From Sphingomonas sp. So64.6b (GTDB lineage Bacteria; Pseudomonadota; Alphaproteobacteria; Sphingomonadales; Sphingomonadaceae): a stretch of 64,000 bases of DNA. Every line of letters starts with the position of its first letter. The first letter of the stretch is position 1. The notes beneath the pieces were generated by a model. That model did not search any database and had not been told where the DNA came from. It worked only from the letters and a program-made list of their open reading frames with translations. Made by a program: the position numbers and the translations under genes. The stretch is taken from assembly GCF_014171475.1 (NCBI RefSeq), contig NZ_CP048817.1:2480001-2544000 (forward strand). Direction: 5' to 3'. Positions 21,134 through 56,239 of this stretch are shown in pieces.

Positions 21134-24100
21134 TCAGAAGTTGAACCGGATCCCGCCATTGACGGTGAAGGCACGCAGGCCCGAACCGTCGTCGATATTG
21201 CCGACCACAAAGGCCGACAGGCGTCCGCCCCGGGCATGGGCCATGACGCCCGCCGAGTAACGCATCGCATCATCCCAGGTGCGCGTGTTGAGCGAGAAGC
21301 TCGTCGCCGGCGTACCGAAGGTGAAGGTGCCGTTGTCGCCACGCGACCAGTTCTTCATCCCCGCAGCGCTGGCGAACGGCTCGACCACGACCTTGTCCGC
21401 GTCGCCCGCGCGATACGACACGCGCAGCCCGGCCTGGCCGACCTTGGTCTTGTCGCCGCCCGGCGAGTAGAAGCTGTCCGCGTCGATCGTCATATTGTCG
21501 ATCCGGCTGTCGGCATAGTTGAAGCCGACGAACGGCGTTGCCGCGAAGCCACTGCTGCCGCCAACGCGGTAGGAAGCGTGGATCGACCCGGCGGTCGCCC
21601 GGCCGTCGACGTCCTTCTTGGTGTTGCCGAACAAGGTCGGCAGAACCACGTCGTATTTGCGCCATTCGCGACGGAGCTGGCCGTCGATGGTGAGCGCGCC
21701 GTTGCTGATCGCGACATAACCACCGACAAAGCCCGTATCGACCGCCAGCCTTTCGCTCGCGGACGGATGAGCAACGCCGTCGTACCAGCCGCCGGTGACA
21801 CCCAGATGCGCGACCCAGTTGCCGCCGAAGTAAAGGCCCAAATCGGCGCCCATCTGGATCGCCTCATGGTTGGTGCGCAACCGGTTGACCGAGTTAAACG
21901 TGACCCCGCCGCCGCTGATCGACGATGCGATGGTCTGTTTGGTATGCCCGCCCGAACCGCGCATCCACAGGCTGAACCTCTTGTCGCCCGCCGCCGCGTC
22001 GGTCCGTGGCGTGATATAGGGGCTGATCGGCGCGTCGAGCAGCATCGAGGCGGATTCGGCGACATAGGTCAGGCCGCCCAGCGCCGTCGAGGACGGGTTG
22101 ATCTGCTGGATCAGGCCGAACTGGGTATTGCTCGCCGGGTTGCGCCCGAAGCTTTCGAGGATGAACCCGGTGTTCGGGAAGATCGTGTTCGAGGTGAAGG
22201 TACCGACCGCGGCGCCCGGCGTCACCGTCACCACCGGCAGGAAGCCGCCGGCGACAAAGCTGCGTGCGCCGACGCGGTTCATCGTCACATTGGTATTGCC
22301 CGAGGCTGCGCCACCAATGTTCAGGCGATCCGCGGTCGCGGTGACGGTGCTGTAATCGGCGAAGAACTGCCCGCCGCCGACATAGGCGCCGCCGACCGTG
22401 ACGACGTTGCTGGTCAAATTGTTCCGCGCGTTGATGATCCCGGTGTTGGTCATCGCCCCGTTGGTGGTGAAGGTGCCCGCCCCGGCGAAGTTGATCCGGT
22501 TCGAGTTGTTGGTGTTGCCGAGGAACAGGATCGTTCCGCCGGCACCGATATTGGCGGTGCCCGCATTGACGAAGCTGCCCGAGACGCTGGATGCGCCCGA
22601 CCCGAAGTTCGCGATTCCGCCGGCCGCATTGGTTACGGTCGAGGTCGCGACAGCCGAACCGGTCACATTGAGCGCGCCGTTCATCGTGCCGGTGTTAGTC
22701 AGCGTGAAGCTGCCGCCGTTCAGCGTCGCCAGCACCGCGCCGCCGGTGCCGGTCAGCGTACCGCCGTTGACGACGCTGGCATTGCCGGTCCCGGTTGCGG
22801 TCATCCTGATACCCGCCGTGCCCGAGATCGACCCGGCATTGTTGACCGCAAGCGCAGCGTCGACACCGGCAAGATCGATGCCGATGATGCCGGCGATCGT
22901 GCCACTGCTGACCTGGTTGACGGTGAGCGCACCGACTGCGCCGGCACCGGTCGAGGTCAACCGCACGCCGATATTATCGCCTTCCACCAGACCGGCATTG
23001 TTGACGGTGATCGCACCAGAGACAGTCGACTGGTCGATGCCGATCAACGGATCGATCACGCCGGTTGCGCTGATATTGGTGACAATGTCGCCAACGGTCG
23101 AGATGCTGGCGACACCCGCCGCCGCGGCATTGATCGTGCCGTCCACATTGATGGTCGTGGTGCCCGAGGACTGACCGCTATCGGTGAAGATGCCGTAGGC
23201 GCCCACCGCGTTGGCGGTCACGGTATGGCCGGCGGTCAGCGTGACGTCGATCGTACCGGTATTGGCCGCCGCAGCCGTGTTGAGTGCGACGATCGCCGTC
23301 GTACCGGTCGAGCTCACATCGCCCGCCATTACGACGATGTTGCCGCCATTCGCTTGCGCCAGGATGCCGTTGCCGGTGGTTGCGGTGACGGGGCCAAGTG
23401 CCGCCACCGTGGTCGAGCCGGTGCCGCGATTGGTCGCGATGATGCCGGTCGTGCCGGAGGTGGCACCGGCGGTCACGTTGACCGCGCCAGTTCCGGCGGC
23501 CGAGCTTTGCTCGGCAATAATCGCCGCATTGCCGGTCGATGTCACCGCACCGGTATTGACGGTGACAGCGCCGCCGGTCGAGAGCGCGTAGACGCCAATG
23601 CCGGTGGTCACATTGACCGCGCCGACCGTGGTCACTCGGGTCGCGCCGGTGCCGAAATTCTCGGCATCGATGCCGAACCGGGCATTGACCGCGCCGTTGG
23701 TGGTTACGTCGATGTTACCAGTCGCAGCGGCCGGGAAGACCGCAGCGACAACGGCCGCATTGCCCGCCCCGATATTGCCATTGGCGACCACGGTGACATC
23801 GGCGCTGGTCGACTGGGTCCGGATGTCGATGCCGTTCTGGCCTGCCGCCAGCGCGCTGACCGCACCGGTGGTGACGCTGATGTCGCCGCCGAGCGCAGTA
23901 TCGCCCACCACAATGCCGTTGCCGGCAGTGGAACTGCTCGCACCCGAGATATCGACCGTGACCGTTCCCGCACCATTGTTGAGGATGTTCGCCGCATCGC
24001 CGGTCCCGCCGACAAAGCCGCCAGCGCCAGTGACCGAGATGTTGCCCGCGCCGCCGGTTCCGCCGATCAAGGTCAGGCCGCGCGTCGCGCCGGTCACCGT

Positions 24101-27100
24101 ATTGGCCACCGCTACGGTCACCGCGGCGTTGCCGTTTGCCAGGATGCCCTCGGCGGCAGTGCCGGTCACCGTACCGTTGGCGGTCACGTTGATTGCGCCA
24201 GTGCCGGCATTGAGCGCGAAGATACCCGTCGTACCCGAGACATTGCCGGCGGTCACATCGATCACGCCCGCGCCAGCGGCCGAAGTCTGCTGAGCGACGA
24301 TCGCCCCCGCGCCGGTCGATGTGACGTCGCCCGCATTGACCGTGACGTTGCCGCCGGTGGTCAGCGCGAAGATGCCATTGCCAGTGGTCGTGTTGACCGG
24401 GCCGACCGTGGTCACGCTGGTCGAACCGGTGCCGAAATTCTCCGCATCGATGCCGAACCGGGCATTGACCGCGCCGTTGGTGGTCACGTCGATGTTGCCA
24501 GTCGCAGCGGCCGGGAAGACCGCAGCGACGATAGCGGCATTGCCCGCCCCGACGTCGCCATTGGCGACCACGGTGATATCGGCGCTGGTCGACAGGGTCC
24601 GAACGTCGATGCCGTTCTGCCCTCCCGCCAACGCGCTGACCGCACCGGTGGTCACGCTGATGTCGCCGCCGAGCGCGGTATCGAGCACGACGATGCCGTT
24701 GCCGGCGGTGGAGCTGCTCGCGCCCGAGATATCGACCGTGACCGTGCCAGCGCCGTTGTTGAGGATGTTCGCCGCATCGCCGGTCCCGCCGACAAAGCCG
24801 CCAGCGCCAGTGACCGATATGTTGCCCGTGCCGCCAGTGCCGCCGATCAAGGTCAGGCCGCGCGTCGCGCCGGTCACCGTGTCGGCGACGCTCACGCTCA
24901 CCGCGGCGTTGCCGCTGACGTTGATGCCCTCCGCGCCGGTGCCGGTGACCGTGCCGTTGGCGGTCACGCTGACCGCCCCGGTGCCGGCATTGTTCGCAAA
25001 GATACCGGTCGTGCCAGAGACATTGCCCGCGGTCACATCGACAACGCCCGCACCAGCGGCCGAGTTTTGCTGGGCAACGATTGCTGCGGCGCCGGTGGAT
25101 GTGACGTCACCGGCATTGACCGTGACATTGCCGCCATTGGTCTGTGCGTAGATGCCGTTGCCGGTCGTCGTGTTGATCGGGCCGACCGTGGTCACGCTGG
25201 TCGAACCGGTGCCGAAATTCTCCGCATCGATGCCGAACCGCGCATTGACCGCGCCATTGGTGGTTACGTCGATGTTGCCAGTCGCAGCGGCCGGGAAGAC
25301 CGCAGCGACGATAGCGGCATTGCCCGCCCCGACGTCGCCATTGGCGACCACGGTGATATCGGCGCTGGTCGACAGGGTTCGAACGTCGATGCCGTTCTGC
25401 CCTCCCGCCAACGCGCTGACCGCACCGGTGGTGACGCTGATGTCGCCGCCGAGCGCGGTATCGAGCACGACGATGCCGTTGCCGGCGGTGGAGCTGCTCG
25501 CGCCCGAGATATCGACCGTGACCGTGCCCGCGCCATTGTTGAGGATGTTCGCCGCATCGCCGGTTCCGCCGACAAAGCCGCCAGCGCCAGTGACCGATAT
25601 GTTGCCCGTGCCGCCAGTGCCGCCGATCAAGGTCAGGCCGCGCGTCGCGCCGGTCACCGTGTCGGCGACGTTTACCGTTACCGCGCCGTTGCCATTGGCG
25701 TTGATGCCCTCTGCGCCGGTGCCAGTGACCGTGCCGTTGGCGGTCACGGTGATCGCGCCGGTGCCGGAGTTGGTGGCTTCGATGCCGGTCGTGCCCGAGA
25801 CATTGCCCGCGGTCACGTCGATCGCTCCCGCTCCGGCTGCCGAGGTCTGCCGTGCGATGATCGCGGTATTGGCAGTAGCCGTCACATCACCCGCATTGAC
25901 GGTGATGTTGCCGCCAAGCGTGCGCGCGAAGATGCCGTTGCCGGTGGTCGCATTGACCGGACCAACCGTGGTGACGCTGGTCGAGCCGGTGCCGAAGTTT
26001 TCAGCATCGATACCGAACCGCGCATCGATCGCGCCGTTGGCGGTCACGTTGACATTGCCCGTCGCGCCACCCTGGAGGATCGCGCCGACGATGCCGGCAT
26101 TGCCTGCCCCGATATCGCCATTGGCGACCACCGTGACGTCGCCGGTCAGCGACTGAGTCTGGATGTCGATCCCGTCCTGGCCACCCGCCAGCGCGGTCAC
26201 TGCGCCGGTGGTCACGCTGATGTCGCCGCCGATTGCGGTGTCACGCACCACGATGCCCTCGCCGCTGGTCGAACCGCTTGCACCGGAGATGTTGACCGTG
26301 ACCGTGCCAGCACCATTGTTCTGAATGTTCGCCCCGTTACCGGTGCCACCGACGAACCCGCCGGTGCCGGTGACCGATATGTCGCCCGTGCCGCCAGTGC
26401 CGCCGACCAGGTTGAGGCCGCGCGTCGCGCCAGTCACCGTATCGGCGACGTTCACCGTTACCGCGCCATTGCCATTGGCGTTGATACCTTCGGCAAGTGT
26501 GCCGGTGACCGTGCCGTTGGCGGTCACGGTGATCGCGCCGGTGCCGCTGTTGGTGGCTTCAATACCGGTCGCGCCCGAGACATTGCCCGCCGTCACATCG
26601 ATCGTGCCCGCGCCAGCGGCCGAAGTCTGGCGCGCGACGATCGCGGTCTCGTCGATTGAGCTCACATCACCCGCGTTGACCGTGACGTTGCCGCCACCCG
26701 TTCGTGCGAAGATGCCATTGCCGCTGGTCGCGGTGACCGGCCCGACCGTGGTGACACTGGTCGAACCACTGCCGAAGTTCTCGGCATCGATCCCGAAGCG
26801 TCCCGTGATCGCACCATTGGCGGTCACATCGACATTGCCCGTCGCGCCACCCTGGAGGATCGCGCCGACGATGCCGGCATTGCCCGCATTGATGTCACCA
26901 TTGGCGACGATCGTCACATTACCGGTCAGCGATTGCGTCTGAACATCGATACCGTCACGGCCCGCCGACAGCGCGGTGACCGCGCCGGTGGTGACATCGA
27001 CATTGCCGCCCGCGACGGTGTCACGAACGACGATACCTTCGCCGCCCGCCGAACTGCTCGCGCCCGAGATATCGACCAGGACATTGCCCGAGCCGTTATT

Positions 27101-29188
27101 CTGGATGTTCGCCGCATTACCGGTGCCGCCGACAAAGCCGCCGGTGCCGGTGACCGATATATCGCCCGTGCCGCCAGTGCCGCCGACCAGGTTGAGGCCG
27201 CGCGTCGCGCCAGTCACCGTATCGGCGATGTTCACCGTTACCGCGCCGTTGCCGTTCGCATTGATACCTTCGGCAAGTGTGCCGGTGACCGTGCCGTTGG
27301 CGGTCACGGTGATCGCGCCGGTGCCGGCGTTGGTGGCTTCAATACCGGTCGCGCCCGAGACATTGCCCGCCGTCACATCGATCGTGCCCGCGCCAGCGGC
27401 CGAAGTCTGGCGCGCGACGATCGCGGTCTCGTCGATTGAGCTCACATCACCCGCATTGACCGTGACGTTGCCGCCACCCGTTCGTGCGAAGATGCCATTG
27501 CCGCTGGTCGCGGTGACCGGCCCGACCGTGGTGACACTGGTCGAACCACTGCCGAAGTTCTCGGCATCGATCCCGAAGCGTCCCGTGATCGCACCATTGG
27601 CGGTCACATCGACATTGCCCGTCGCGCCACCCTGGAGGATCGCGCCGACGATGCCGGCATTGCCCGCATTGATGTCACCATTGGCGACGATCGTCACATT
27701 ACCGGTCAGCGATTGCGTCTGGACATCGATACCGTCACGGCCCGCCGACAGCGCGGTGACCGCGCCGGTGGTGACATCGACATTGCCGCCCGCGACGGTG
27801 TCACGAACGACGATACCTTCGCCGCCCGCCGAACTGCTCGCGCCCGAGATATCGACCAGGACATTGCCCGAGCCGTTATTCTGGATGTTCGCCGCATTAC
27901 CGGTGCCGCCGACAAAGCCGCCGGTGCCGGTGACCGATATATCGCCCGTGCCGCCAGTGCCGCCGACCAGGTTGAGGCCGCGCGTCGCGCCAGTCACCGT
28001 ATCGGCGACGTTCACCGTTACCGCGCCATTGCCATTGGCGTTGATACCTTCGGCAAGTGTGCCGGTGACCGTGCCGTTGGCGGTCACGGTGATCGCGCCG
28101 GTGCCGCTGTTGGTGGCTTCAATACCGGTCGTGCCCGAGACATTGCCCGCCGTCACATCGATCGCGCCCGCTCCGGCCGCCGAAGTCTGGCGCGCGATGA
28201 TCGCGGTATTGCCGGTTGAGCCCACATCACCCGCGTTGACCGTGACGTTGCCCCCAGCCGTTCGTGCGAAGATGCCGTTGCCGCTGGTCGCGGTGACCGG
28301 ACCAACCGTGGTCACACTGGTCGAGCCAGTGCCGAAATTCTCCGCATCGACGCCGAATCGTGCGTCGATCGCACCATTGGCGGTCACGTCGATATTGCCG
28401 GTTCCCGCAGCCGGGAAGATCGCGCCCACAATGCCGGCATTACCCGCCTGGATATTGCCATTGGCAACGATCGTGACATCGCCGGTCAGCGACAGGCTCT
28501 GCGCGTCGATGCCGTCGCGACCACCGCTCAGCGCAGTGACATCGTTGGTCGTCACCGAAATGCCGGTGCTGGTCGCCACGTCGCGGACGGTGATGCCTTC
28601 GCCGGTCGCCGCGGTGACATTGCCGGTGATGTTGATATTGACCGAACCGGCACCGCCGGTCTGCACCGCGTCGAAGCCGTTGCCGGTGCCGTTGTTGGTG
28701 ATGCTGCCGCCTGTATAGGCGATCGTGCCGCCAGCCGTCGAAAGCGACAGCGCAGCAGTGCCGCCGGCCGTCGGCGTGTTGCCGGCATCGACGCTGATCG
28801 AGCCATTATTGGTCACGGTGACGCCGCCGCCAGCGGTGTTGACGAGCGAAAGGCCGTTGCCGCTGACCGCTGCGCCCGCATCGACGTTGAGGATGATCGG
28901 CGTGGCGATCGGGCCGGTATATCCGCGATCGGTGGGTGGGCTGGCGGGAAAAGTCGTGTCGGTGGTGACGGTGGTGTCGCACGTCACGGTGACGCCGCCG
29001 ACGAGGCAATCCGCCCAGGCCTGTCCGGGAGCCAGCAGGCTCACGCCCGCAAGGGCGGCCATGCCGATGGTCGACCGAAGTGCAAGCCGACTTGCCTGCG
29101 ACCGCAGGTTCCTGCGGAGTGCCGATTTCGTGGAAGTCCGTGCGGGAATCGCGGTCGAACGACCGGCGGAATTGAAAAAGCACACCAT
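21134..29188 (-). CDS. Giant autotransporter adhesin-like protein, 2684 residues
   Basis: A very large type V-secreted protein. ATG 29188 is chosen because it follows AGGGGCAGG and starts a long basic signal region (MVCFFNSAGRST...) ending at PGQAWA; an upstream in-frame ATG adds 44 unrelated residues. The passenger (about residues 65-2150) is a Gly/Thr/Ala/Val beta-solenoid without Lys-rich stretches, containing nearly seven copies of a 260-residue unit (GTGAITVTANGTVTGT, GNGIFARTxGGNVTVNAGDV, SGASSSxxGxGIVVxDT). The last about 280 residues (from FSLWMRGSGGHTK) are the autotransporter barrel, ending in Phe (GGIRFNF). Its high GC opens long spurious frames on the opposite strand. The likely role is cell-surface adhesion. 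Confidence 0.9.
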   Translation of the reverse strand: MVCFFNSAGRSTAIPARTSTKSALRRNLRSQASRLALRSTIGMAALAGVSLLAPGQAWADCLVGGVTVTCDTTVTTDTTFPASPPTDRGYTGPIATPIILNVDAGAAVSGNGLSLVNTAGGGVTVTNNGSISVDAGNTPTAGGTAALSLSTAGGTIAYTGGSITNNGTGNGFDAVQTGGAGSVNINITGNVTAATGEGITVRDVATSTGISVTTNDVTALSGGRDGIDAQSLSLTGDVTIVANGNIQAGNAGIVGAIFPAAGTGNIDVTANGAIDARFGVDAENFGTGSTSVTTVGPVTATSGNGIFARTAGGNVTVNAGDVGSTGNTAIIARQTSAAGAGAIDVTAGNVSGTTGIEATNSGTGAITVTANGTVTGTLAEGINANGNGAVTVNVADTVTGATRGLNLVGGTGGTGDISVTGTGGFVGGTGNAANIQNNGSGNVLVDISGASSSAGGEGIVVRDTVAGGNVDVTTGAVTALSAGRDGIDVQTQSLTGNVTIVANGDINAGNAGIVGAILQGGATGNVDVTANGAITGRFGIDAENFGSGSTSVTTVGPVTATSGNGIFARTGGGNVTVNAGDVSSIDETAIVARQTSAAGAGTIDVTAGNVSGATGIEATNAGTGAITVTANGTVTGTLAEGINANGNGAVTVNIADTVTGATRGLNLVGGTGGTGDISVTGTGGFVGGTGNAANIQNNGSGNVLVDISGASSSAGGEGIVVRDTVAGGNVDVTTGAVTALSAGRDGIDVQTQSLTGNVTIVANGDINAGNAGIVGAILQGGATGNVDVTANGAITGRFGIDAENFGSGSTSVTTVGPVTATSGNGIFARTGGGNVTVNAGDVSSIDETAIVARQTSAAGAGTIDVTAGNVSGATGIEATNSGTGAITVTANGTVTGTLAEGINANGNGAVTVNVADTVTGATRGLNLVGGTGGTGDISVTGTGGFVGGTGNGANIQNNGAGTVTVNISGASGSTSGEGIVVRDTAIGGDISVTTGAVTALAGGQDGIDIQTQSLTGDVTVVANGDIGAGNAGIVGAILQGGATGNVNVTANGAIDARFGIDAENFGTGSTSVTTVGPVNATTGNGIFARTLGGNITVNAGDVTATANTAIIARQTSAAGAGAIDVTAGNVSGTTGIEATNSGTGAITVTANGTVTGTGAEGINANGNGAVTVNVADTVTGATRGLTLIGGTGGTGNISVTGAGGFVGGTGDAANILNNGAGTVTVDISGASSSTAGNGIVVLDTALGGDISVTTGAVSALAGGQNGIDVRTLSTSADITVVANGDVGAGNAAIVAAVFPAAATGNIDVTTNGAVNARFGIDAENFGTGSTSVTTVGPINTTTGNGIYAQTNGGNVTVNAGDVTSTGAAAIVAQQNSAAGAGVVDVTAGNVSGTTGIFANNAGTGAVSVTANGTVTGTGAEGINVSGNAAVSVSVADTVTGATRGLTLIGGTGGTGNISVTGAGGFVGGTGDAANILNNGAGTVTVDISGASSSTAGNGIVVLDTALGGDISVTTGAVSALAGGQNGIDVRTLSTSADITVVANGDVGAGNAAIVAAVFPAAATGNIDVTTNGAVNARFGIDAENFGTGSTSVTTVGPVNTTTGNGIFALTTGGNVTVNAGDVTSTGAGAIVAQQTSAAGAGVIDVTAGNVSGTTGIFALNAGTGAINVTANGTVTGTAAEGILANGNAAVTVAVANTVTGATRGLTLIGGTGGAGNISVTGAGGFVGGTGDAANILNNGAGTVTVDISGASSSTAGNGIVVGDTALGGDISVTTGAVSALAAGQNGIDIRTQSTSADVTVVANGNIGAGNAAVVAAVFPAAATGNIDVTTNGAVNARFGIDAENFGTGATRVTTVGAVNVTTGIGVYALSTGGAVTVNTGAVTSTGNAAIIAEQSSAAGTGAVNVTAGATSGTTGIIATNRGTGSTTVAALGPVTATTGNGILAQANGGNIVVMAGDVSSTGTTAIVALNTAAAANTGTIDVTLTAGHTVTANAVGAYGIFTDSGQSSGTTTINVDGTINAAAAGVASISTVGDIVTNISATGVIDPLIGIDQSTVSGAITVNNAGLVEGDNIGVRLTSTGAGAVGALTVNQVSSGTIAGIIGIDLAGVDAALAVNNAGSISGTAGIRMTATGTGNASVVNGGTLTGTGGAVLATLNGGSFTLTNTGTMNGALNVTGSAVATSTVTNAAGGIANFGSGASSVSGSFVNAGTANIGAGGTILFLGNTNNSNRINFAGAGTFTTNGAMTNTGIINARNNLTSNVVTVGGAYVGGGQFFADYSTVTATADRLNIGGAASGNTNVTMNRVGARSFVAGGFLPVVTVTPGAAVGTFTSNTIFPNTGFILESFGRNPASNTQFGLIQQINPSSTALGGLTYVAESASMLLDAPISPYITPRTDAAAGDKRFSLWMRGSGGHTKQTIASSISGGGVTFNSVNRLRTNHEAIQMGADLGLYFGGNWVAHLGVTGGWYDGVAHPSASERLAVDTGFVGGYVAISNGALTIDGQLRREWRKYDVVLPTLFGNTKKDVDGRATAGSIHASYRVGGSSGFAATPFVGFNYADSRIDNMTIDADSFYSPGGDKTKVGQAGLRVSYRAGDADKVVVEPFASAAGMKNWSRGDNGTFTFGTPATSFSLNTRTWDDAMRYSAGVMAHARGGRLSAFVVGNIDDGSGLRAFTVNGGIRFNF
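23400..28690 (-). repeat. Tandem repeat array, about 6.8 units of exactly 780 bp
   Basis: Matching landmarks recur at an exact 780-bp step: the segment around TGCCGAAATTCTC is found at about 23651, 24431, 25211, 25991, 26771, 27551 and 28331. Each unit encodes 260 residues in frame. Units at 26641-27420 and 27421-28200 are almost identical (only scattered single-base differences), so that duplication is recent; outer units have diverged more. Such an array allows passenger length to change by recombination. Confidence 0.9.
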
Positions 29189-29350
29189 GAACCTGCCCCT
29201 TTTAGTGCAGCGAATTGGTGCGACCCCCCGGATTATCCCGGGTTTTTTAATTGGCGCCTCTATGTCCCGGGCCTTGGTGGGAGTCAACCGGTGCCGTTTC
29301 CAGCAGATGTGCAGGAACAATACGGATCGGAAGCGACGTTCAAGCCGGCC

Positions 29351-52348: not shown

Positions 52349-53341
52349 TCAGGCCGGCGTATGCCCATGACGCCATTTGATCCACAGGTGTCGCGCGAGC
52401 ATCATCGGTGGCATGCGCAGCAAGTGCGAACGGATATAGAAACCAAGCCGAGTGAACGGCCGGATCGGCCAGCCCCAGCCATCGCGCGCGGTCAGGCGGC
52501 GAAGATAGAGACGGTCGGCGGCTGAGAGTGTCGCACCATCGCCAAAGAGCGCCGCGGCGAGGCGCAGGGCGCGGCCGACTTCACGTTTCAGGCCGTGATG
52601 CGCCGCGCGCTGAACCAGCCCATCGGTCCCGAATTCACCGACCAGGCAATGCACATCCCACAGGTTGCGCATGCCACCGGCCAGATCGCCATCGGCAAAC
52701 AGATGCGCCGCCGCATGGACCAGCATGTCGTTGGGCGACAGCACGCGCATATCGGTTGCGAGTTCGATACTCGCCTCGAGCAATGCCTGCGCGTCCGGCG
52801 TAATACGCGCGGTCAGCGGCAGGATGGTGTGGTGCACGTCGATCATGCGATCGCGATCGCGGTGGATCAGCGGTGGCAGTTCGTGCATCCAGCGCCGATA
52901 ATAGGCGTCGTCATAGGGATCGGGCTTGACCCATTCCCAGCCGCCGGCGAGCAGCGCCGCCTCCACCACATCGATCCGGTCACGGGCGACGAGAATGTCG
53001 AGATCGCCGATCGAGCGTCCCTGTCCGGCCGCCAGCCCGGCCGCGACGAACGCGGTGCCCTTGAGCAGCACCACCGCCACGCCGAGCGGCGTCAGCACAC
53101 GCCGCGCCATCTCGGCTTCCCACAACGCGGCGATACGTCCTTGCTCCGCCGAGGCACGCGCGTCCCCGAGGATGCGCTGCACCGCGTTCGGGACAGCCAG
53201 CCCCTCCAGCCGATGCGCCAGCGTGCCGATCAACTGTTCGGCGCGCGCAATCGCCAGCAAATCGGTCCAGCCCGCGCCATTGAGCGCGAGCGTGGTTTCG
53301 GGCGTGCGCAGCGCACGCGCGAGCAGCCACCCGTCGTTCAT
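52349..53341 (-). CDS. Nucleotidyltransferase of the HprK-related operon (NTP_transf_5 type)
   Basis: A 330-residue nucleotidyltransferase-fold protein. Active-site features are LLKGTAFVAAG followed by GRSIGDLDILVARD (the Gly-x-Asp-x-Asp metal site) and MIDVHHTI with a further acidic residue. The family (PF14907-like) includes nucleotidyltransferases of lasso-peptide clusters that act on a phosphate made by a kinase. The start overlaps the HprK-related kinase stop by 4 bp (ATGA), so it is last in the four-gene operon. It would add a nucleotide or sugar phosphate to a phosphorylated substrate; that is inference. Confidence 0.8.
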   Translation of the reverse strand: MNDGWLLARALRTPETTLALNGAGWTDLLAIARAEQLIGTLAHRLEGLAVPNAVQRILGDARASAEQGRIAALWEAEMARRVLTPLGVAVVLLKGTAFVAAGLAAGQGRSIGDLDILVARDRIDVVEAALLAGGWEWVKPDPYDDAYYRRWMHELPPLIHRDRDRMIDVHHTILPLTARITPDAQALLEASIELATDMRVLSPNDMLVHAAAHLFADGDLAGGMRNLWDVHCLVGEFGTDGLVQRAAHHGLKREVGRALRLAAALFGDGATLSAADRLYLRRLTARDGWGWPIRPFTRLGFYIRSHLLRMPPMMLARHLWIKWRHGHTPA

Positions 53342-54216
53342 GACGCCGCCTCGAGAGCGAGATCGGACCAGGCGGCTTCGACCTGCGCCAGTGCGCTGTC
53401 GGTATCGGGATAGTCGATCGCCAGGGCGGGGATCGCCTTGACCAGCGAGGTCAGCGCGGTGAAGCCGCGTTCGCCCATCGCGGTGTAATTGGTCGAAGCC
53501 TGAGTGAGGCGCACGAACACTTCGCTGTGCGGCACCGCGCGTGACGCGGCTGCATAACCGAAACTGGGAAACAGCAGCAGCGCCGGCCTGGCGGGTGTCT
53601 CCATCGCCGCAATCGCATCCGCGCCCGGCACGAGATGGCGGATATCGCCCTTGGGCGTGCCCGCGAGAAGCGGGCCGAAGCGTCCCTCCGGCACCGCCTG
53701 TTCGATCACCCCGATCGCCTGATTCTTCAGGCTGACCAGCCGGGGAAAGGCGTGGACCAGCCCGGTCGCCGGATCGAGCAGGGCGAACTCGTCACCCATC
53801 AAGCGCCAGCCTCTCGCGCCGAGCAAAGCCGCCAGCGTCGATTTGCCCGAACCCGACACGCCGGTCATCAGCAACGCGCGCCCGTCGCGTTCGACCACCG
53901 AGGCATGGAGCAGCAGATAGCGCCGCTGCCCCAGCGCCATTTGCAGGTTCATGCCCATTTCGGCGGCGAGCAGCCCTTGCGCGAGCGGCAGGGGTGCTGC
54001 TTCAGGCAACACGAAATCGCCGCCGATCATTACCGACGGGCGCACGACACGCCGCCACGGCCGTGCTGCGAACAACCGGACATTATAGTCCGGCACGCCA
54101 TCCTGTGGTGCTGGATAGTGTGAATAGAGCTCGGCCAATTGTTCGATCGGCGCGCGCCAGTCGGAACCGATGCGAAAACCGATCGGCCCGATGCGTACGG
54201 AGAAGACGTGCCTCAT
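53338..54216 (-). CDS. HprK-related kinase A
   Basis: A 292-residue kinase related to HPr kinase/phosphorylase but distinct from it. HASVVERDG and Walker A GVSGSGKST (119-127) precede GWRLMGDEFALLD and a KLxxK-type region (RLVSLKNQAIG). The N-terminal about 90 residues lack the HprK DRTGG-type domain. I recognise it as the HprK-related kinase A type that accompanies a PqqD-like protein. Lasso-peptide tailoring kinases of the ThcoK/PadeK type belong to the same fold and phosphorylate peptide Ser. Start overlaps the PqqD-like stop by 4 bp (ATGA). Confidence 0.85.
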   Translation of the reverse strand: MRHVFSVRIGPIGFRIGSDWRAPIEQLAELYSHYPAPQDGVPDYNVRLFAARPWRRVVRPSVMIGGDFVLPEAAPLPLAQGLLAAEMGMNLQMALGQRRYLLLHASVVERDGRALLMTGVSGSGKSTLAALLGARGWRLMGDEFALLDPATGLVHAFPRLVSLKNQAIGVIEQAVPEGRFGPLLAGTPKGDIRHLVPGADAIAAMETPARPALLLFPSFGYAAASRAVPHSEVFVRLTQASTNYTAMGERGFTALTSLVKAIPALAIDYPDTDSALAQVEAAWSDLALEAAS

Positions 54217-54485
54217 GCCGCTTCGACCAGCCCGGCGGCCACAAGTTCGTCGAGCCGCGCCGACAAGGCGCCTGCATCGCCATCGGGCATGTCGAAATCG
54301 GCGAAGAGACGCTCGGTCAGCGCGGGCAATGTCATGCCTGCCTCACCCAGCGCCACGAGAATCTCGGGCGCGGGTGCGGTCAGCAAATGGGTGATGCCGG
54401 ACGAGCGATGGTAGAGCAGCGTGAAATCGTCGAGCCAGTCGATACACAGCGTCTCGACGCGCGCGGCGCGAAACAGCGTATCCAA
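54213..54485 (-). CDS. PqqD-like peptide-binding chaperone of the HPr-rel-A system
   Basis: A 90-residue protein with the PqqD/RRE winged-helix pattern: WLDDFTLLYHRSSGITHLL strands, then helices EILVALGEAGMTLPALTERLF and ALSARLDELVAAGLVEA. PqqD-type domains bind leader peptides of modified peptides. It begins two bases after the exported protein gene and overlaps the kinase start by 4 bp, so it belongs to one operon. I recognise it as the PqqD-family partner of HprK-related kinase A. A true leader-binding role here is inference. Confidence 0.82.
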   Translation of the reverse strand: MDTLFRAARVETLCIDWLDDFTLLYHRSSGITHLLTAPAPEILVALGEAGMTLPALTERLFADFDMPDGDAGALSARLDELVAAGLVEAA

Positions 54486-54487
54486 AA

Positions 54488-54904
54488 TCAGCCGCGCGGC
54501 ATCTGCAACGATGCGAAACAGGTGAAACCGCTGGTGCCCGACTGCAAGCGACGGATGTAATTGGTATAGGCACGGTTGGTTTCGTAATCGGTGCCAGGCA
54601 AGCGCCCGCCCGACAATGCCGTTTTCACGTCCTGTCCCTTGAACGGCCTACCGGCGGGCGCGAAGGCGCCGGGTGTTCCGGCCGGGACCAGCGTACCGTC
54701 GGCGGCGATATAGCTGCCCGCGCGGCCGGGATCGGGCACGGGGATCTCACAGGTCAGGATCGAGGCCTGGGTCTGTGCCAGCGCGGGACGGATCGAAATG
54801 ATCGCCGACGCACCGACCGCGCCAAGCATCAGCGCGCGCCGGCGGGTGGTACCCTCCGGTGGCAGTTCGCCTGGCAGTTCGGCTTCTGGAATATCGTCGC
54901 TCAT
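54488..54904 (-). CDS. Exported protein, possible substrate of the HprK-related operon
   Basis: A 138-residue protein. An acidic N-tail (MSDDIPEAELPGELPPEG) leads to a twin-arginine-like signal (TTRRRALMLGAVGASAIISI), cut near PALAQ. The mature part has two Cys (LTCEIPVPDP; FTCFASLQ), a Gly/Pro-rich middle (GTLVPAGTPGAFAPAGRPFKG) and ends QMPRG. It is first in the operon, two bases before the PqqD-like gene. The unusual acidic leader before the signal, plus operon position, makes it the best candidate for a peptide handled by the PqqD-like, kinase and nucleotidyltransferase proteins. No family recognised. Confidence 0.65.
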   Translation of the reverse strand: MSDDIPEAELPGELPPEGTTRRRALMLGAVGASAIISIRPALAQTQASILTCEIPVPDPGRAGSYIAADGTLVPAGTPGAFAPAGRPFKGQDVKTALSGGRLPGTDYETNRAYTNYIRRLQSGTSGFTCFASLQMPRG

Positions 54905-54997
54905 CGCCCACCTTTACCGATCCAGCCCTTTCATATTCGTGAAACACTGGCAAGCAGGCCTATCCCGGTTAAGCATGATTGCGCTACACGACGGCCG

Positions 54998-56239
54998 ATG
55001 TTTACTGGTTTTGGTCCCCGCACATTCACCGCGATCGGCATCGTCCTTGTGGCGACGGCGGCCGTTTACTTCATTGGGCACAGCGCACAGGCGGCGCTGG
55101 TGACGCTGATCGCCGGCGTCGCCGCGGTGCTCGCCGCGGCCGGCACCGGCGAAGTCGCCCATGAACCCGCACCGCCGCCGCCTGCCGAACGCAAGGCCAT
55201 TGCCGTGCCTGACCTGGGCGAAGTGATGGAAGCGATCGTCGAACCGGTGCTGATCGTCACCGATGGCCGGGTCAGCCATGCCAACAGCGCCGCACGCGCG
55301 TTGCTCGGCGGACATATCATCGGCGAAGATGTGCGACTGGCGATCCGCCACCCCGCCGCCGCCGAACGGCTGTCCAACCCGCTCGCGGGTCATTCGTCGC
55401 GGCCGATCGACCTGGTCGGGCTGGGCACGATGGATCAGCGTTGGGAAATGCGCATCGGGCGCGCATCGGGCGGGCAGCGCATCGTTCACCTAATCGACCA
55501 GACCGGCAATTACGCGGCGGAAAAGATGCGCGTCGATTTCGTCGCCAATGCGAGCCACGAACTGCGCACGCCGCTCGCGTCGATCCTTGGATATATCGAG
55601 ACGCTGGGCGACGAGAAGGCGGGCGAAGACGCGCAAGTGCGCAACCGCTTCCTCAAGATCATGTTCGATGAAGCACGCCGCATGCAGCGGCTGGTCGAGG
55701 ACCTCATCTCGCTGAGCCGGATCGAGGCGGAGAAATACCGCCTGCCCGATCGCGCGGTCGATCTTGCCGCGCTGATCGGCGAGGTTCGCACCGAATTCCA
55801 TGATGGACAGGACGGCCGCGGCGACATTATCGCCGAGATCGAAGCGGATGTACCGCCGGTCGCGGGCGATCAGGCACAGTTGAGCCAGGTGCTGCACAAT
55901 CTGATCGGCAATGCGAAAAAATATGGCCGCGCCGGCGCGCCCGTTTCGGTCCGGCTGTGGCGCGATCAGACCAACATGGTGCGAATCAGCGTCGCGGATC
56001 AGGGCGACGGCATCGCGCCCGAACATATCCCGCGCCTGACCGAGCGATTCTACCGCGTCGATCCGGGCCGCAGCCGCGCCGCGGGCGGCACCGGGCTTGG
56101 CCTTGCGATCGTCAAGCATATCGTCGAGCGGCATCGTGGGCGGCTGGATATCGCCAGCACGCTCGGCAAGGGCACGACAGTGACGATTTTGTTACCCGCA
56201 CATCAGGCGCAGGCCGGAGCCGCTGTCACAAAAGCGTAA
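54998..56239 (+). CDS. phoR: Phosphate regulon sensor histidine kinase
   Basis: A 413-residue kinase. Two TM segments (about 8-26 and 31-48) anchor it, then a PAS-like domain (MEAIVEPVLIVTDGRVSHAN), HisKA with His187 in NASHELRTPLAS, and an ATPase domain with NLIGNAKKYG, DQGDGI and GGTGLGLAIV. Domain order and the following pst operon identify it as PhoR, which with PstSCAB-PhoU senses phosphate and phosphorylates PhoB. The last 17 bases overlap the Pho box. It is divergent from the HprK-related operon, 93 bp away. Confidence 0.93.
   Translation: MFTGFGPRTFTAIGIVLVATAAVYFIGHSAQAALVTLIAGVAAVLAAAGTGEVAHEPAPPPPAERKAIAVPDLGEVMEAIVEPVLIVTDGRVSHANSAARALLGGHIIGEDVRLAIRHPAAAERLSNPLAGHSSRPIDLVGLGTMDQRWEMRIGRASGGQRIVHLIDQTGNYAAEKMRVDFVANASHELRTPLASILGYIETLGDEKAGEDAQVRNRFLKIMFDEARRMQRLVEDLISLSRIEAEKYRLPDRAVDLAALIGEVRTEFHDGQDGRGDIIAEIEADVPPVAGDQAQLSQVLHNLIGNAKKYGRAGAPVSVRLWRDQTNMVRISVADQGDGIAPEHIPRLTERFYRVDPGRSRAAGGTGLGLAIVKHIVERHRGRLDIASTLGKGTTVTILLPAHQAQAGAAVTKA

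Follow-up and report, generated by a model that had tools for sequence, protein, structure and literature searches.

A four-gene HPr-rel-A operon of Sphingomonas as a possible tailoring module for an exported protein in an exopolysaccharide setting

The present analysis concerns four adjacent genes, referred to here as A, B, C and D, in a stretch of 64,000 nucleotides (the window) from contig NZ_CP048817.1 of Sphingomonas sp. So64.6b (positions 2,480,001 to 2,544,000 of the forward strand of this single contig of 5.06 Mb). The genes occupy 54904-52349 on the minus strand and encode a putative exported protein, a PqqD-like peptide chaperone, an HprK-related kinase and a nucleotidyltransferase, respectively. 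An earlier note, prepared from the sequence of the window, had read them as a compact operon, and all the four open reading frames (ORFs) were re-found at the place and on the strand claimed there, with gaps of +2, -4 and -4 bp. The closest named relatives of both A and C are from Sphingomonas. The genes and the relevant features within them are as follows (aa, amino acids; Tat, twin-arginine translocation).

54904-54488, minus strand: gene A, 138 aa, ATG start; predicted exported protein and candidate substrate
54776..54847, minus strand: putative Tat-type signal of A, residues 20-43 (TRRRALMLGAVGASAIISIRPALA), seen in the alignments and with the same layout in distant loci
54491..54529, minus strand: C-terminal tail of A, residues 126-138 (GFTCFASLQMPRG), almost invariant and modelled as unstructured
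54509..54511, minus strand: Ser132 of A, proposed phospho-acceptor, invariant in 81/81 window-type sequences
54485-54213, minus strand: gene B, 90 aa, TTG start; PqqD-like peptide chaperone, TIGR04353
54216-53338, minus strand: gene C, 292 aa; HprK-related kinase A, TIGR04352
53836..53862, minus strand: Walker A motif of C, GVSGSGKST, with G122, G124, K125 and T127 present in 39/39 aligned sequences
53341-52349, minus strand: gene D, 330 aa; NTP_transf_5 nucleotidyltransferase, PF14907
52997..53008, minus strand: GDLD metal site of D, with D113 and D115 present in 35/35 aligned homologues

Profile searches were performed with all the four proteins, and B, C and D were assigned to families in agreement with the parts list drawn up earlier: B matches TIGR04353 with 58.9 bits (cut-off 35), C matches TIGR04352 with 243.8 bits (cut-off 200) and D matches PF14907 with 165.7 bits (cut-off 31.2). 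NCBIfam already has a name for the B-C pair, the HPr-rel-A system, which consists of the TIGR04352 kinase and the TIGR04353 PqqD family chaperone; since B and C of the window clear the curated cut-offs of both models, the operon, as judged by profile scores, belongs to this system. The titles of the models refer to the kinase and the chaperone only, and literal-term searches of open-licence papers found nothing on a substrate of the HPr-rel-A system, on an accompanying nucleotidyltransferase or on a link to exosortase A (XrtA). The terms HPr and PqqD have no occurrences in the paper on the XrtA/PEP-CTERM system (PMC1569441; Haft 2006).

The intact Walker A motif of the kinase and the GDLD site of the transferase were both verified and are conserved in the homologues. 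In addition, H104, K125, D142 and E143 of C are each conserved in 39/39 aligned sequences, and D168 of D is likewise kept in all the 35 aligned homologues. D is encoded in 11/11 genomes checked, in 8 of which it lies away from the kinase gene, and at some of the loci examined it is not adjacent to the kinase. A Foldseek search with D gave no match at E<=0.001. The nucleotidyltransferase fold of MenT1 and ANT(2'')-Ia, which D probably shares, is the closest known one; D differs from these proteins in carrying extra helices on both sides and in its gene context, and a common fold does not establish the function of D.

The product of gene A has 3316 homologues at E<=0.01 and no family match in Pfam and NCBIfam at E<=1, hence no PEP-CTERM domain match either. 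The alignments reveal conservation over the whole mature body, preceded by a signal with an RRRALM motif, a hydrophobic h-region and an RPALA site, in which R22 and S37-I38-P40-A41-L42-A43 are invariant among 56 aligned sequences. The earlier description of A as an exported protein with an acidic N-terminal tail before its signal is borne out in part: the signal appears to be of the twin-arginine type (TTRRRALMLGAVGA..RPALA), and the acidic tail is variable and does not form a conserved leader. In the AlphaFold model, residues 61-120 have predicted local distance difference test (pLDDT) values of 85-93, residues 1-44, including the signal, lie below 50, and the last two blocks reach 61 and 43. 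Profile comparison relates A to the other Sphingomonadales A type with 98% probability over 132 columns, and to a second large group with 87% over only 46 columns around the signal.

The C-terminal tail is far less variable than the body, the mean entropy of the last 16 columns being 0.17 bits against 0.91 in the body (81 window-family sequences). Ser132 sits at +3 from the invariant Cys129 and is followed by six residues; the remark that A ends in QMPRG and not in Ser is literally true and overlooks this invariant Ser within GFTCFASLQMPRG. A tail that is almost invariant and at the same time modelled as unstructured would be expected where a protein is recognised or modified.

Conservation of the gene set was examined with tblastn over 80 related loci, namely those retained by the kinase search. 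B was found in all 80, A in 79 (not in L090) and D in 79, the gap at L068 being a locus that stops at a contig edge; the occurrence of A, B, C and D as a set is far beyond chance. Within the genus, the A profile matches 28/28 kinase-positive and 0/9 kinase-negative genomes (Fisher p 8e-9 with kinship ignored, some of these genomes being only 79-86% complete). Over 61 related genomes, 30 were matched, and the only matches outside the genus are G038, where the kinase is present, and a marginal one in G047 (20 bits, no kinase). The nine kinase-negative genomes of the genus retain phoR in 9 and gph in 8 (not G028), and among the stretches fetched from them remnants, in the form of scraps of C and D, occur only in G018. 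A is thus conserved with the other three genes, a point on which its proposed role had been made to depend, and it is best regarded, from its distribution, as a constant partner of the kinase and a candidate substrate.

The comparison was extended to more distant kinase loci. The locus sample covers 58 of the 61 kinase-positive genomes (not G000, the window genome, G010 or G232) and further chosen genomes, three of which lack a complete kinase match (G018, G009 and G056, the last cut by a contig end); L223, where the kinase ORF is absent, was omitted. The distant set comprises L144-L175 and L184-L211 (n=60), with L220, from the same genome as L170, outside it and L211 cut by a contig edge. At loci elsewhere, tblastn detected no relation of the proteins in the A position to A of the window, except at L015 (35%). 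Most of the distant A proteins nevertheless follow one general plan: an RRR-x-L-K-like signal, an [IV]-T-L-x-S-G-like segment, a body, and [S/T]-C-[W/F/L/Y/I]-x-S near the end. At L210 the plan is reduced to a short form of 82 aa, in which an N-terminal stretch precedes the signal and only a few residues separate the signal from SCLDSFNGL.

With a strict pattern, a Tat-like ORF was found within 1 kb upstream of the kinase at 49/60 distant loci. When the nearest such ORF was chosen blind to the motif, [S/T]-C-[aromatic/aliphatic]-x-S occurred in the last 30 residues of 40/49, in proteins with differing bodies, against a mean of 0.3 and a maximum of 4 in 2000 rounds of shuffled tails. Ser occupies the +3 position from the last Cys in 40 of the 43 distant proteins having a Cys in the last 30 residues, and in 36 of these 43 the last Cys lies 3-13 residues from the C-terminus. 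In the same loci, the motif is carried by 40/11305 ORFs of any frame and 7/341 Tat-like ORFs; in the run that supplied these controls the motif was allowed to choose between two Tat-like ORFs, and the 40/49 count was redone without that choice.

A second A type, without the SC-x-x-S tail, is found at L144, L146, L147 and L151-L158. Several of these proteins have a Cys soon after the signal (CSISG, CSVSG, CSLSG or CTISG) and an [S/T]PG[YWF]W stretch, and 8 of these 11 loci have a gene for an HtrA-like protease nearby.

The genomic setting of the module was assessed through its relation to exosortase A. Among 296 Sphingomonadales genomes, 128 have the kinase (E<=1e-40) and 211 have XrtA (E<=1e-50), with 126 and 202, respectively, above the curated cut-offs; 122 have both, 6 the kinase only, 89 XrtA only and 79 neither. 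XrtA is therefore present in 122/128 kinase-positive against 89/168 kinase-negative genomes (Fisher p 1.8e-17, not corrected for phylogeny). Within the genus, where 24 of the 28 kinase-positive and 7 of the 9 kinase-negative genomes were covered, XrtA is above the cut-off in 22/24 and 1/7, respectively. In G018 (loci L221 and L234) only remnants of the kinase and of D are left and stop codons interrupt exosortase A, an apparent joint decay of XrtA and the kinase. Phylum-wide, in 398 genomes, an exosortase (TIGR02602, E<=1e-15) occurs in 31/61 kinase-positive genomes and in 42/337 others.

In some genomes the two systems also share a locus. Among the matches listed, 40 genomes were compared, 34 of them with both genes on one contig: the kinase lies 4-15 kb from XrtA in 13/40, 46 and 57 kb away in two, on a separate contig in 6, and at a greater distance in the others. 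At L168 (G059) the order is XrtA deacetylase TIGR03006, FemAB TIGR03019, exosortase A TIGR03109, HtrA-like protease, A, B, C, D and gph- and glmS-like genes, and at L144 (G353) the XrtA exporter TIGR03027 adjoins A, with the PEP-CTERM protein floc_PepA past D. The 60 distant loci contain two clusters of glycosyltransferases, in 23 and 18 loci, and 15 of the loci have an asparagine-synthetase-like cluster; the representatives scanned, one per cluster, pass TIGR03088, TIGR03087 and the XrtA amidotransferase model TIGR03108. Some loci away from XrtA have the module amid XrtA-type glycosyltransferase genes. Thus the module shares genomes with the XrtA/PEP-CTERM system (PMC1569441) and, in the 13 genomes above, loci as well; A of the window has no PEP-CTERM match.

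Taken as a whole, the evidence leaves about an even chance that the operon exemplifies a widespread module for protein tailoring, which acts on the tail of A and is tied to the exopolysaccharide matrix; the operon apparently serves the making of a polysaccharide coat rather than of a lasso peptide. Parts of two reviews (PMC9266682, PMC8498205) describe HprK-like kinases that place a phosphate on the Ser at the C-terminus of lasso precursors, and PsmN, which adds a hexose to that phosphate in pseudomycoidin. In the order proposed here, B would bind the A precursor, perhaps via the conserved signal-peptide segment, and deliver it to C; C would phosphorylate the tail Ser (Ser132 in A of the window), a step proposed because of the lasso precedent and the conserved Ser of A; D would attach a nucleotide, or a sugar, to the phosphoserine, a step proposed because of the pseudomycoidin precedent; and the folded, modified A would leave through the Tat pathway and act in the matrix made from exosortase-A-type loci. 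The gene set, the tail motif, the co-occurrence with XrtA in the Sphingomonadales and the shared loci in other families are directly observed, and from them we infer the enzymatic steps and their order, the docking, the Tat export and the role in the matrix.

The NCBIfam HPr-rel-A models seen name a kinase and a chaperone and no substrate. The present comparison adds a substrate rule, an accompanying nucleotidyltransferase and an exopolysaccharide link: it offers A as a candidate substrate, Ser132 as a candidate residue (in general, the Ser at +3 of the last Cys) and exosortase-A exopolysaccharide as a candidate setting, and an annotation label thereby becomes directly testable. If the proposal is true, kinase and nucleotidyltransferase tailoring of the lasso type extends to Tat-type exported proteins across many Sphingomonadales (kinase in 128/296 genomes), and the XrtA exopolysaccharide systems have an accessory protein-modification arm.

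Several observations weigh against this proposal. The Tat family model TIGR01409 does not match A of the window, so that Tat export is proposed from the sequence pattern; the relative L164 scores 13.3 (cut-off 16.7). Structure comparison of the A model gave no match to a known fold. At 12 distant loci (L144, L146, L147 and L151-L159) a Tat-like protein is present and the tail motif was not found, and A itself was not found at L160, L162, L186, L196, L202 and L204, nor at L179 and L090, both outside the distant set. The counts for the distant loci are not independent, because several of these are close relatives (L167/L169, L173/L174 and L193/L208 are near-identical). The lasso kinases are described, in the parts of the reviews mentioned above, with a His-Lys-Asp-Asp set, whereas that of C looks like H-K-D-E. 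As to the setting, G002 and G023 are kinase-positive and XrtA over the cut-off was not found in them. The kinase is more than 100 kb from XrtA in 18/18 genomes of the family to which the window belongs; in the window genome itself about 680 kb separate the operon from exosortase A (TIGR03109, 335 bits; G000:C1:1851724-1852500). Furthermore, an exosortase is present in 25/25 kinase-positive genomes of seven families and in only 6/36 of the remaining families, and therefore the module does not require the exosortase itself. Its constant partner may be the exopolysaccharide locus rather than the exosortase, the link in the remaining families being drawn from neighbour genes.

Twelve loci without the tail would be more readily accommodated if B, C and D targeted some other molecule, such as a polysaccharide, a lipid or the PEP-CTERM proteins, and the tail of A were a docking or sorting signal or were held by a disulfide. 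The tail Cys is conserved as strongly as the tail Ser, and most A proteins of the second large group have four Cys after the signal, which also fits such a role. However, B belongs to a family of peptide chaperones, the lasso-kinase relatives target the C-terminal Ser of peptides, as far as the cited parts of the reviews describe them, and A is the recurring gene upstream of B-C, so this alternative is considered unlikely.

HprK is a regulatory kinase, and C could accordingly act in a phospho-switch, phosphorylating and dephosphorylating A or B and so steering exopolysaccharide output with no stable modification of a product. The neighbourhood lends this some plausibility: one flank of the operon has a phoR-like gene and pstS-, pstC- and pstA-type genes (the PhoR and PstS assignments in the window score under their curated cut-offs), the other has gph-, glmU- and glmS-type genes, and phoR/pst-like ORFs, as read from the sequence, stand beside related loci. 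The conserved acceptor-like Ser, however, is on an exported protein, beyond the later reach of a cytoplasmic switch, and D is still encoded by genomes in which it is not adjacent to the kinase; a switch of this kind thus appears rather improbable.

A more specific form of the tailoring proposal is that of an activated protein anchor, in which D would cap the phosphoserine as a Ser-pyrophosphate-nucleoside and, after Tat export, a matrix glycan would displace the nucleotide to give a phosphodiester-linked polysaccharide. We attach a still lower probability to this idea, which, if true, would represent a Gram-negative way of joining protein and polysaccharide unlike glycosylation by oligosaccharyltransferases.

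The frame in which the operon was originally set, that of a lasso peptide or other RiPP (ribosomally synthesised and post-translationally modified peptide) system lacking protease and cyclase, or a degenerate lasso cluster, is disfavoured by the TIGR04352 membership, by a separate lasso-type cluster in the same genome and by the association of the module with XrtA loci. The parts are shared: lasso clusters, too, contain HprK-like kinases, nucleotidyltransferases and B1/PqqD-type proteins, and the tailoring by PadeK, ThcoK, SyanK or PsmK with PsmN, as far as it is covered in these parts of the reviews (PMC9266682, PMC8498205), also combines an HprK-like kinase, a nucleotidyltransferase and a PqqD-like partner. 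In the window, by contrast, the B2 protease and the cyclase are not nearby, the candidate substrate is of the Tat type and the Ser is internal to the tail. The expected absence of lasso B2 and C genes was confirmed: PF13471, the B2 protease, was not found near the kinase in 55 genomes, the nearest on the same contig being 88 kb away (G039), with fragmented genomes excluding no more than this. In the window genome PF13471 lies about 332 kb from the operon kinase, and no match to the lasso cyclase model NF033535 exceeds the cut-off, the nearest sub-cut-off match being about 237 kb off. An asparagine-synthetase-like gene does lie near 15/60 distant loci, as had been thought worth checking, but the representative scanned is the XrtA amidotransferase (TIGR03108, 941.9 bits) and not a cyclase (281.5 bits with the lasso-cyclase model, cut-off 525). 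A, with 138 aa, a conserved mature body and a PRG end, is unlike a short lasso precursor ending in Ser.

The separate cluster (G000:C1:2197165-2202271; 4166-9272 of L233) is about 330 kb from the operon and outside the window, and encodes an HprK-like kinase, a sulfotransferase (PF00685), a PqqD protein (PF05402), a lasso-type protease (PF13471) and an apparent TonB-type receptor; more than 90 kb separate it from the nearest cyclase-like match of the genome. Its kinase shows a weak similarity to TIGR04352 (47.6 bits only), which slightly favours a lasso origin. Because the B2 protease is not near the kinase, no cyclase match lies within about 237 kb and the chromosome has its own lasso-type cluster elsewhere, the lasso reading of the operon is not supported and is very improbable.

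Two further observations were made in the window. The phoR-like gene is divergent from the operon (window 52349-56239), and a comparable layout, which may reflect a link to phosphate regulation, is seen in several Sphingomonadales loci. An ORF of 2728 aa at 21134-29320 on the minus strand, for which Pfam gives no match at E<=0.0001, consists of repeats rich in Gly, Thr and Ala, and its end, with F as the final residue, resembles an autotransporter barrel.

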